Shown here: piece after piece, positions 10,494 to 30,680 of the stretch
Numbering within the stretch: position 1 is the stretch's first letter
Layout: each line of letters opens with the position of its first letter
Virus record (IMG/VR): IMGVR_UViG_3300046517_000355
Span: 1 to 64,000 of that record
Origin: a virus
DNA: 64,000 bases
Direction: 5' to 3' (one strand)
Notes under the pieces: model-generated
What the model saw: the letters and a program-made list of their open reading frames with translations, nothing else
What the model was told of the DNA's origin: nothing
Database searches by the model: none
Program-made: the position numbers and the translations under genes

Positions 10494-10508
10494 GCACGCA
10501 AGTCGTGC
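10494..10508 (+). promoter_or_regulatory. Leader hairpin, CAAGT loop
   Basis: GCACG, loop CAAGT, CGTGC. A 5-bp stem near the expected transcript start of the 10535 gene. It is one of eight equivalent hairpins in the window. Confidence 0.7.
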
Positions 10509-13754: not shown

Positions 13755-13765
13755 AGGACGAAAGA

Positions 13766-13796
13766 AGAGGCTGATCAGCGCGATCAGCCTCTTTTT
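13766..13796. terminator. Bidirectional intrinsic terminator
   Basis: An 11-bp perfect stem (AGAGGCTGATC, loop AGCGC, GATCAGCCTCT) has TTTTT on the plus side and an imperfect T-rich tract on the minus side. It separates convergent genes ending at 13647 (plus) and 13820 (minus). Confidence 0.9.
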
Positions 13797-13819
13797 GCGT
13801 CATAGATCAAGCGGAGAGA

Positions 13820-22946: not shown

Positions 22947-23208
22947 ATACGAAATAATAAAACTTTTTGCCCGCATACTGCGCGAACAATGACGCGAGAG
23001 TCTCCTCGAAGGTCCACGATCTCTCTCGTGTATAGACGACAAGCTCCTGCAGGAGCTTCACCTTCGATGGAAATACCTTTGTGCTGAGAAAGATCGTGAG
23101 TGCTTCTTCGAAGTGCGTGTGGATGTGATCGACCTCGAATTCATAGACGGCGTGCTCTTTGATCGCCCAGGCAGGAACGTCGATCTGTGGTCGTGCATTG
23201 AGTTTCAT
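22924..23208 (-). CDS. Accessory protein under a structured leader
   Basis: A 94-aa protein starting MKLNARPQIDVPAWAIKEHA, with a histidine-rich centre (DHIHTHFEE). The ATG at 23208 was chosen over GTG 23232 because GGAGAGG lies upstream of it. That ribosome site sits partly in the stem and loop of a strong hairpin (see 23209-23298), so translation may be controlled. The function is unknown. Confidence 0.55.
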   Translation of the reverse strand: MKLNARPQIDVPAWAIKEHAVYEFEVDHIHTHFEEALTIFLSTKVFPSKVKLLQELVVYTRERSWTFEETLASLFAQYAGKKFYYFVYGKRKTP

Positions 23209-23298
23209 GAGAATGCCGGCAACCTCTCCCACAAAGGCTGCCGGCTATTCGAGACAGACCGTTTCAAAAACGTCTACCACGTCCGCCTGTCTCGAAAC
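23209..23298 (-). ncRNA. Structured leader that masks the ribosome site of the 22924-23208 gene
   Basis: The whole 90-nt gap is structured. Read on the minus strand, TTCGAGACAG pairs with CTGTCTCGAA (10 bp, 23248-23296) enclosing a CGTTT/AAACG hairpin (23260-23272). Then GCCGGCA pairs with TGCCGGC (7 bp, plus an inner AGG/CCT; 23215-23245) with GGAGAGG between the arms. It could be a riboswitch-like element or a protein-controlled translational operator; no known class is recognised. Confidence 0.55.
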
Positions 23299-23673
23299 TT
23301 ATTCAACGTCGAGCTTATCGATCTCGCTCACGTTAGTCTTTTTTTTAGTGATCTTGATGCCCCACTTCTCATTGAGGACGACCGTGTCGCCGTCGTCGAG
23401 ATCGTATGTCGGAACATTCGTGCGGCGCATCTCCTCGATCAGATCGTCACGAGCGACGACATACTCATTCCGAAGCTGAAGCATGCCGTCGCGCTTCTGC
23501 TTGCAGAGATCGCCGAGCTTCTTCAGGCGCTTCGAGACGACCGGCTTCACGCCTGGTAGAAACGTATCTCCTTTCGAGTTCGCATCGACCTCAACCATTT
23601 CGTCGTCAGGATCAGGTATCAGGTTATCGTCGGCTATTTCTTCAGCTGGGGCCGACTTCTTCTTTCGTGGCAT
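23299..23673 (-). CDS. Charged small protein, unknown
   Basis: A 124-aa protein starting MPRKKKSAPAEEIADDN. It has a basic N-terminus, an acidic stretch, then a helical region (SKRLKKLGDLCKQKRDGMLQ) and a beta-rich C-terminus. AAAGGAGAACCAACAC precedes the ATG at 23673. The N-terminal KKK and helix suggest nucleic-acid contact, but no family is recognised. Confidence 0.65.
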   Translation of the reverse strand: MPRKKKSAPAEEIADDNLIPDPDDEMVEVDANSKGDTFLPGVKPVVSKRLKKLGDLCKQKRDGMLQLRNEYVVARDDLIEEMRRTNVPTYDLDDGDTVVLNEKWGIKITKKKTNVSEIDKLDVE

Positions 23674-28126: not shown

Positions 28127-29612
28127 GATTTGCATTTTCGACATCGAATTCGTTCCCGATGTGAAGCTCGGACGTCGCCTGCTTGGCGATCATGTCGTCA
28201 GTACAGGCATTCAGAATGAAGGCGAGATCAAAGCGATTAGCGATCTCGACGACACACACGTCGCCGCGCTCATGCAGGAGATGTATGGGAACGACCGAGG
28301 CATCATGAAGACGATGATGTACCAAGTCGTAAGCATCGCCGCTGTGATCAGGCGTTGGAACGGCGAGGTGAAGCTTCAGATCCTAGGACGTCCTGACATC
28401 GAAAAGCTCGAAGACTTCAGCGAGCGCGATCTGATCAGCAACTTCATGAATTACGTCGGAACGAAGAAGCCGCAGATCGTAGGCTACGCGACGCACACCT
28501 TCGATCTCGTGTCGCTGTGGCAGAGAGCGATTGTCAACAAGCTCCGTGTGCCTGAGTTCTGCTCGCGACCTGGGAAGCCTTGGGAGGATGCTCCTGACTA
28601 CTTCGCGACGACGAAAGCGCAGAACGGATACAATGTCGATCTCTTGAAGGTGCTTGGGAATTTCAACCAAGAGCAACCGAAGCTGGAACAGATCGCGCTC
28701 AGTCTCGACATCCCAGCGAAGATCGGCGGCGACGGCTCGAAAGTCGCAGGCATGTGGTTCAACGGTCAGCACAAGGAGATCATCCAGTACAACGAATGCG
28801 ATGCGCTCTCGACATACATGCTCTGGCTCAACTTGGTGCACACGCACGGGCTTTTGTCCACTGATCAATACGATGCAGAGCTTGAACTGTTCGGCGTGTT
28901 GCTGGCGAGCGAGCGAGAGAAGCGTCCGCACGTTGGATTGTTTCAGGACGAATGGCACCGACTCAGTGGAAAAGAGCGCATCATCGATTCGAAAGAGGAA
29001 CGGATCGAGGTCACGAAAGCCGAGCTTGCTAAGGCGGCAGATGTTGTCGCCGCATGCGACACGTCGCAGATCGACGAAAAACCTCCTGAGCAGGCTGGAA
29101 TCGTCTGCATCCAGTGCAAAAAGCCTGCGCCAGAAGGAGCAACCAACGCGGCTTACAAGTGCGCAGACTGTTCACTCGATCCGACGCACGCATTCATCGC
29201 GAAAAACCTTGGCGATCTCGTGACAGGAAAGCAATTGGCGATGATCAAGTCGCTCTGCAAAACACTGAAGACGACGCCTGAGGCGGCTGCCTACGATCTG
29301 TTCAAGTGCAAGTTCGACGAAATATCGAAGCGTGCCGCGTCTGATCTGATCTCTGATCTGCAAGAGCGTATCGCACGAGCAGAGACGACGCCTGTGGAGA
29401 AGACGGAGCCGAAGGAGAAAGGCACGCTGTCTATCGCATTCGGCAATGATTTTTATCGTGTCGAAGTCGATGCTGATCTCGTGCCGAAAGATAACGTCCA
29501 CTCGATGCTATTCGACAAGGAGGGACCTGTCGTTCGATTCTACGATCTTGCAGGTATGGTGCTCGCTGAAGCTCCTTGCAAAGTGCTCAGCGTCGAAGAC
29601 GTTCCATTTTAA
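28098..29612 (+). CDS. PolB-like 3'-5' exonuclease with zinc ribbon
   Basis: A 504-aa protein. The N-terminal 250 residues are a DnaQ/PolB-type exonuclease: CIFDIEFVPD (D15, E17), VGYATHTFDLVSLWQRA, and NECDALSTYMLW for the later acidic motifs. It is close to the predicted exonuclease family related to the PolB proofreading domain. A CIQCKKPAP...YKCADC zinc ribbon follows near residue 335. Next comes a helical segment (QLAMIKSLCKTLKTTPEAAA) like those found in ring-forming phage recombination proteins, and a small C-terminal beta domain. It could resect DNA ends for the Sak4 protein. AAAGGAGAACA precedes the ATG. Confidence 0.8.
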   Translation: MNTIQFIHNEICIFDIEFVPDVKLGRRLLGDHVVSTGIQNEGEIKAISDLDDTHVAALMQEMYGNDRGIMKTMMYQVVSIAAVIRRWNGEVKLQILGRPDIEKLEDFSERDLISNFMNYVGTKKPQIVGYATHTFDLVSLWQRAIVNKLRVPEFCSRPGKPWEDAPDYFATTKAQNGYNVDLLKVLGNFNQEQPKLEQIALSLDIPAKIGGDGSKVAGMWFNGQHKEIIQYNECDALSTYMLWLNLVHTHGLLSTDQYDAELELFGVLLASEREKRPHVGLFQDEWHRLSGKERIIDSKEERIEVTKAELAKAADVVAACDTSQIDEKPPEQAGIVCIQCKKPAPEGATNAAYKCADCSLDPTHAFIAKNLGDLVTGKQLAMIKSLCKTLKTTPEAAAYDLFKCKFDEISKRAASDLISDLQERIARAETTPVEKTEPKEKGTLSIAFGNDFYRVEVDADLVPKDNVHSMLFDKEGPVVRFYDLAGMVLAEAPCKVLSVEDVPF

Positions 29613-29617
29613 CTCTT

Positions 29618-29647
29618 TGACAAGCTCGCAAAGGTGCGAGTATATTT
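29618..29647 (+). promoter_or_regulatory. Promoter with operator-like spacer before initiator leader
   Basis: TTGACA, 18-bp spacer, TATATT. The spacer contains the perfect dyad CTCGCA-AAGG-TGCGAG (29626-29641). It differs from the TGCA-family promoters. Confidence 0.7.
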
Positions 29648-29655
29648 CCGATCTC

Positions 29656-29820
29656 GGTGATCGCTTTTTGGATGGCGGTCACCGACATTCTCAAAATTTA
29701 GACCAGATAAGTGCCTTTAACTCGGCGTCTTAGTGTCCGCGTGTCTTCGCCATCTGGTCGGCTAAGCTCCTCGCGTATTCCAAAGATGCGAGGCGTCGAG
29801 TTAAGGGCATTTTCCTTTTT
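29656..29820 (+). ncRNA. Structured, T-tract-ended leader RNA before the replication initiator
   Basis: The expected transcript starts near 29655. It would contain a 10-bp hairpin CGGTGATCGC/GCGGTCACCG (29656-29685), GACCAGAT (29701-29708) pairing with ATCTGGTC (29752-29759), and TGCCTTTAACTCGGCG (29712-29727) pairing with CGTCGAGTTAAGGGCA (29794-29809, two G-U). A further stem is CCTCGC/GCGAGG (29769-29793). The second and third stems interlock (A-B-A'-B'), so they form a pseudoknot or exclude one another. TTTTCCTTTTT follows the last stem, as in a terminator. This may be an attenuator or riboswitch-like switch, or a free small RNA such as a replication regulator. Confidence 0.6.
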
Positions 29821-29833
29821 CACCTACAAAATT

Positions 29834-30649
29834 ATGTCAATAAAATTGATGTCTTTGGTCTGGGACTCTCGATACTCAAAATACCGACGCAACCCAAAAG
29901 GTAAGTGGATCAAGTCACATTCAAAGCTTCTCGTGATGCTCAAGCTCGCAGATCACGCGAGCGATGACGGCGATTGTTACCCGTCGCAGATCGTGATCGC
30001 AGATAAGGCAAATGTCTCACAGCGCGACATCACACGAGTGCTCCGAGAGTTGGCAAAAGACGGCAAGATCGTGATCACCAGAACCCGCAAAGGAAACCTC
30101 TATAAATTGAAATTCGACGATCTCGATGCTGACTTTCCAGATCAGACACAGTGTCTGGTCCTAAATTCAGAGCGATCAGACACAGTGTCTGGTGAAAGTG
30201 ACGTCCATGTCACTTCCGGATCAGACACAGTGTCTGGTGCTTTATTAAGAGAACCATCAGAAGAACCACCAACTAACCGTCCAAGACGCGCGGCGCGCGC
30301 GGAGAAGGCGGCGAAAGCGCGAGATCCTAGAGCCGATCATGTTGCGATCAAAGCGATCACTGCTCTCATGTCGATTTATCCTCCGAAAGAGCGCTGGGAC
30401 GACATCATCGCGTGGTTCGGAACTGACTTCGATCAGTCTCGCCTCAAAGACTTCTGGCTCGAATGGATCGACAACGGCTTCAGTCGAGTCTCGACGAAAT
30501 GGCTTCGCTGGTATTTCAAAGGCGTCACTGACAAAGGCGGCACTCTGATCACGACGCATCCGCTGAATGTGAAATATGGCTTCTCGAAAGCAAACGGCAA
30601 GGCTCCTGTCAGGAACGCTCCGACAATCGAAGACGAATTAGGAATTTAA
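29834..30649 (+). CDS. Replication initiator (winged-helix, lambda-O-like layout)
   Basis: A 271-aa protein. Residues 13-85 are a helix-turn-helix domain typical of phage replication initiators (SHSKLLVMLKLADHASDDGD, PSQIVIADKANVSQRDITRV, then a GNLYKLKF wing). A linker encoded by three iterons (with SDTVSG repeated) follows, then a charged segment, and a C-terminal domain with RWDDIIAWFG and WLRWYFKGV. It would bind the iterons and recruit the DnaB-like helicase made two genes after the next promoter. The ATG lacks a Shine-Dalgarno sequence, and a second ATG lies five codons on. Confidence 0.75.
   Translation: MSIKLMSLVWDSRYSKYRRNPKGKWIKSHSKLLVMLKLADHASDDGDCYPSQIVIADKANVSQRDITRVLRELAKDGKIVITRTRKGNLYKLKFDDLDADFPDQTQCLVLNSERSDTVSGESDVHVTSGSDTVSGALLREPSEEPPTNRPRRAARAEKAAKARDPRADHVAIKAITALMSIYPPKERWDDIIAWFGTDFDQSRLKDFWLEWIDNGFSRVSTKWLRWYFKGVTDKGGTLITTHPLNVKYGFSKANGKAPVRNAPTIEDELGI
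30141..30238 (+). other. Predicted replication origin: three palindromic iterons inside the initiator gene
   Basis: The 19-bp sequence ATCAGACACAGTGTCTGGT occurs exactly at 30141-30159, 30175-30193 and 30220-30238. Each copy contains the palindrome CAGACAC-A-GTGTCTG. An additional dyad GTGAC/GTCAC lies between copies 2 and 3. The placement between the DNA-binding and C-terminal domains of the initiator mirrors the lambda O/ori arrangement. Confidence 0.8.
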
Positions 30650-30652
30650 CGC

Positions 30653-30680
30653 TTGACACGATCTGCAAAAAGCGTTAAAT
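30653..30680 (+). promoter_or_regulatory. Phage promoter of the TGCA-spacer family, copy 6
   Basis: TTGACA, 16-bp spacer with TCTGCAA, TTAAAT. No CACGA/CAAGT hairpin follows, unlike most copies. Confidence 0.85.

Follow-up and report, generated by a model that had tools for sequence, protein, structure and literature searches.

The record of this uncultured virus is 71,671 bases long, of which the window analysed here covers 64,000. All genes around the leader point rightward, and the 221-nt gap between the exonuclease and initiator genes contains a promoter, a 5' hairpin and a terminator hairpin. The features of the region, and of a promoter family elsewhere in the window, are as follows.

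Upstream neighbourhood, + strand: Gp157/Gam-like gene
Upstream neighbourhood, + strand: AAA ATPase related to Sak4-type annealing proteins
Ending at 29612, + strand: PolB-type 3'-5' exonuclease gene, directly upstream of the leader
29617–29646, + strand: promoter P29617, TTGACA-18-TATATT, 11 of 12 consensus matches
29654–29685, + strand: 5'-terminal hairpin of 12 pairs including G-U, arms 29654–29665 and 29674–29685, 8-nt loop
29701–29759, + strand: stem A, 8 bp, exact, arms 29701–29708 and 29752–29759; precedes the terminator in growing-transcript folds
29709–29812, + strand: stem B, the terminator hairpin, 23 pairs with G-U, arms 29709–29731 and 29790–29812
29769–29793, + strand: hairpin C, 6 bp, arms 29769–29774 and 29788–29793; its 3' arm shares positions with that of B
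29810–29820, + strand: T tract TTTTCCTTTTT of the terminator, 13 nt upstream of the ATG at 29834
29834–30649, + strand: lambda O-like initiator gene without a Shine-Dalgarno sequence (PF13730, phrog_1032, phrog_391, phrog_8540)
30143–30236, + strand: iteron palindromes CAGACACAGTGTCTG in three identical copies within the initiator gene, laid out as in ori-lambda
30653–30680, + strand: next family promoter, bounding the initiator as a separate unit
Downstream of the initiator, + strand: two unknown genes, then a DnaB-type helicase gene
10458, 11856, 19209, 19536, 24431, 30653, 38414 and 44774, + strand (rightward, early): family of eight promoters, TTGACA-cgNTTTGCAANNcgtG-TATAAT

The initiator gene has the make-up of a lambda O-type initiator with a predicted origin in its own gene, combining an O-like N-terminal winged helix with intragenic iterons. 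The iterons are 15 bp each, begin at 30143, 30177 and 30222 (spacing 34 and 45 bp), and are followed by an A-rich stretch; together they are the probable replication origin. The initiator start has no Shine-Dalgarno sequence (+2.2 kcal/mol with the anti-SD), as the original prediction had noted. About five other starts of the phage also lack one, so the missing ribosome site is not informative and cannot be counted as a special property of this gene. Within the leader, a 9-codon frame (MAVTDILKI, 29672–29701) has its stop codon adjoining stem A and a weak ribosome site (-3.0 kcal/mol); this frame could be due to chance.

P29617 has the organization of a sigma-70 promoter (TTGACA/TATAAT hexamers, 16–18 nt apart), with TTGACA at 29617–29622 and TATATT at 29641–29646 separated by an 18-nt spacer. 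The spacer carries a dyad, CTCGCA/TGCGAG, at 29625–29630 and 29635–29640, which shuffled spacers yield with a probability of about 0.001. A promoter with a dyad of its own in the spacer had been proposed from the first inspection, and both elements are present once the start is corrected to 29617. No further copies of the dyad were found above chance within the window, and we rejected it as a shared operator on these grounds. P29617 is a divergent relative of the eight family promoters, distinguished by its 18-nt spacer and its own dyad. One half of the spacer, GCAAAGGTGCGAG (29628–29640), recurs with two differences as CCAAAGATGCGAG (29780–29792) in hairpin C, and the repeat may mark a second site for a regulator or have arisen by chance. 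Downstream of the terminator, no promoter with at least 9 of 12 matches and able to serve the ATG is present within 29821–29834; two matches at 9/12 place the -10 box inside the gene.

The RNA structure and the terminator are far beyond chance. The 5' hairpin starts 8 nt past the -10 box, which is the predicted transcript start, and its region is more stable than 99.8% of shuffles. It had been described as a 10-bp hairpin; the hairpin is there, and with G-U pairs it is longer. Stem B was likewise put at 16 bp, and here too the stem stands at a greater length, with none of 500 shuffles containing a stem of even 16 pairs. Stem B and its T tract form an intrinsic (Rho-independent) terminator in which a G+C-containing 23-pair hairpin leads straight into TTTTCCTTTTT, in agreement with the T tract originally placed directly at the last stem; the 6-bp hairpin C was also recovered. 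Hairpin B encloses a 58-nt apical part, unusually large for an intrinsic terminator, and it is absent from a simple terminator scan because the scan permits only 3–8-nt loops. An ordinary bidirectional terminator is found at 13763–13797, between convergent genes, where a 15-bp hairpin with A and T runs on its flanks is short and compact compared with B.

The whole leader has a folding z of about -6.5 to -6.8. When 5,722 windows from both strands of the record are compared, it has the highest rank by G+C-corrected energy and the second-highest by z. The sole window with a stronger z (-7.2) is at 23201–23370 on the minus strand, where two long hairpins lie around the gap between two leftward frames. 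No Rfam family matched the leader at its gathering score, and a relaxed threshold gave only E = 2.1 and 3.3, in line with the first inspection, which recognised no known riboswitch class.

The most striking claim of the original prediction was that stems A and B interlock in the order A-B-A'-B'. This order exists in the sequence and stem A is exact, but the interlock does not stand out: a perfect stem as long as A occurs in 8.6% of shuffles, and the minimum-energy fold contains neither stem A nor a pseudoknot and draws B as one long hairpin. Forcing A raises the energy from -72.1 to -59.9 kcal/mol, a cost of 12 kcal/mol. The A arm that ends at 29708 is followed at once by B at 29709, and without a linker the complete formation of both would be strained. 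Folds of the growing transcript are more informative: from 29758 to 29800 stem A is in the best fold at 7 of 8 lengths, with C added from 29794, and the switch to B comes at 29806. The pre-terminator fold is matched or exceeded in stability by 4.3% of controls in which the B arms were fixed and the rest shuffled (p = 0.04). This modelled folding order hints at a two-state leader but does not prove one. In such a leader, an early stem A would topologically delay B, and a signal that stabilizes A would open the initiator gene and transcription of the origin; the signal may be a phage protein, a host factor or an antitermination complex. If true, the start of phage replication would be switched at RNA elongation. 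We consider this two-state switch quite unlikely. The interlocked 8-bp stem A is weakly supported, and the interlocked switch is unproven. A reading of stem A as half-iterons for the initiator was rejected, the resemblance extending over only 6–7 bp.

There is no good promoter between B and the ATG, and the next family promoter starts 4 nt past the stop codon, so the initiator gene lies alone between the terminator and a new promoter and would be reached only via the terminator. From this arrangement we conclude that terminator B would gate the initiator gene regardless of the promoter that feeds it. The sequence elements, their statistics, the gene order and the lack of any good promoter from the terminator to the ATG are established. 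Termination, read-through and rationing at the leader are what we infer. Our preferred reading, which we judge to have an even chance of being correct, is that the element is an attenuated leader of the initiator gene, in which terminator B rations the initiator by read-through and yields an RNA of ~165 nt.

An attenuated leader would work as follows. RNA polymerase would start at P29617 (at about 29653) or enter from the exonuclease operon, and would transcribe the 5' hairpin first. Stem A and hairpin C would come next, and the 23-pair stem B with the T tract last. The majority of polymerases would halt near 29820 and release the ~165-nt RNA, while a minor fraction would continue into the initiator gene and across the iterons within it. 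The read-through fraction would then determine both the dose of initiator and transcription across the origin. Read-through could be fixed, or it could be regulated, with the early stem A, a protein or an antitermination complex as the regulator; an unregulated leaky terminator would present identically. Transcription through ori inside O is regarded as a main control of lambda replication (PMC3985674), and rationed read-through would therefore affect initiator dose as well as activation of the origin. If the attenuated leader is real, a single element sets the amount of initiator and transcription across an intragenic origin, giving compact timing of phage replication.

Several rival explanations were considered. 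The original prediction left the choice between a switch and a small RNA, and in the latter case P29617 would give rise to a separate ~165-nt transcript, protected at its 5' end and closed by the terminator at its 3' end, that acts in trans on a protein or on RNA of phage or host, with the initiator expressed by leakage only. An independent small RNA gene is unlikely in our estimation, yet it draws on a promoter of its own, a 5'-terminal hairpin, a terminator, the lack of a ribosome site in the RNA and a largely unpaired linker (29686–29700). Attenuation predicts identical anatomy, and what favours the gate is that no good promoter separates the terminator from the ATG. A small RNA gene would also deprive the initiator of its own transcript. 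Complementarity of the leader to other phage sequence is at chance level only, the longest matches (13–14 nt) falling within coding sequence. The original proposal is supported by the likeness of the promoter to a phage-wide set, by structure and terminator beyond chance, and by the gating position; the pseudoknot as a standout feature is not supported, and neither is a ligand, an antisense RNA or conservation of the pairing. It is quite improbable that the element acts after transcription, with the fold protecting the mRNA or a pseudoknot controlling initiator translation and the T tract serving as a U-rich translation enhancer. The ATG is indeed preceded by a largely unpaired U-rich stretch with no Shine-Dalgarno sequence, and pseudoknot-dependent initiator translation occurs in ColIb-P9, according to the work of Asano and Mizobuchi as cited in PMC10724649. 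Against such a role, the T tract sits exactly against hairpin B, no pseudoknot appears in the minimum-energy fold, and the missing A–B linker (29708/29709) would strain a complete interlock.

The start of the leader can also be read as a nut-like antitermination site, with CTCTTTGACA (29613–29622) as boxA and CTCGCA-AAGG-TGCGAG (29625–29640) as the boxB hairpin, so that transcripts from upstream would carry an antitermination complex through B and transcripts from P29617, having no site, would stop. Both sequences are present in the order of lambda nut sites, boxA then boxB hairpin (PMC6614801), but they overlap promoter elements: the boxA match shares half its length with the -35 box, and the spacer of the promoter doubles as the hairpin. 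The hairpin loop is 4 nt rather than 5, similar CTCTTTGA matches occur at many places, the resemblance was spotted post hoc, and an unsystematic look identified no N-like gene. We regard this reading as very improbable. Less probable still is an attenuator controlled by antisense RNA in the style of pT181 and pIP501, in which a countertranscript of the leader would favour terminator B. The layout is shared, as in these plasmids, too, the rate-limiting initiator mRNA has a leader with a terminator (PMC4981023). They differ in using an antisense RNA and in being plasmids rather than a phage. Here, a scan for sigma-70-type promoters found no minus-strand site at 8/12 or better that could give RNA across the leader, and the one 8/12 match (29632–29606) points away.

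Attenuated initiators are a kind already known: plasmids have them, and so does lambda in a different form. To our knowledge, an O-type gene with a terminated leader on the same strand has no precedent. In the leaders of ColIb-P9 repZ, IncB and IncL/M, a pseudoknot aids translation (works cited in PMC10724649), together with a leader frame and an antisense RNA. The alternating pairings of these initiator leaders resemble the arrangement here, whereas in the phage a T tract follows and the sole leader frame noted is the 9-codon one with its weak ribosome site. The lambda replication region (pR, tR1, pO/oop RNA, and O with ori) also has an O-like initiator, intragenic iterons and an adjacent short RNA; terminators lie en route to O, and transcription across ori matters (PMC3985674). 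In lambda, however, oop RNA is on the opposite strand, antisense to cII, whereas the short RNA here would be on the same strand and end directly before the initiator. Furthermore, ori-lambda has four iterons in the middle of the O gene (PMC3985674) compared with three here, and no N or clear nut site was found in the phage.

Relatives were sought in viral contigs with the exonuclease, helicase, initiator and AAA proteins, an AAA alignment, iteron pairs, the arms of stem B and the promoter family. These searches, which for the AAA alignment cover the matches listed, found one close relative, G001, and no homologous leader. The G001 contig stops within the exonuclease gene, some 900 bases short of the leader, and the next best proteins in the AAA alignment are 30–39% identical among the matches listed. 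Contig L091 has one promoter match in common and zero genes. Bacterial genomes gave no match to the AAA protein and five promoter matches in Clostridia, which look like chance and were rejected as relatives. A covariance model built from the single sequence and run on 1.3 Mb of viral DNA from 83 sources recovered only the leader itself, and nucleotide comparison with phage records gave no match.

The promoter family, which is also found in G001, has a conserved palindromic spacer, CACGN-TTTGCAAA-NCGTG, between the -35 and -10 boxes that is probably an operator for a phage regulator. Six of the eight family promoters have a 15-nt hairpin near the predicted start, followed by an AAGGA-type ribosome site; the hairpin of P29617 is at the same distance but is longer and has no ribosome site after it. 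The 15-nt hairpin (5-bp stem, pentaloop CACGA or CAAGT) precedes the ribosome site of eight early genes (+ strand of the window, at 10494, 11892, 19244, 19571, 20101, 24467, 24767 and 44810), six of which have an early promoter immediately before it. It also occurs in L006, at 756, 1350, 1880, 6836, 7230 and 7531. Six different stems are found with a constant loop, and at one orthologous site the stem shows a compensatory change from GCACT/AGTGC (19571) to GCGAG/CTCGC (L006:1350). With its boxB-like geometry, this small hairpin is possibly the site for an RNA-binding regulator.
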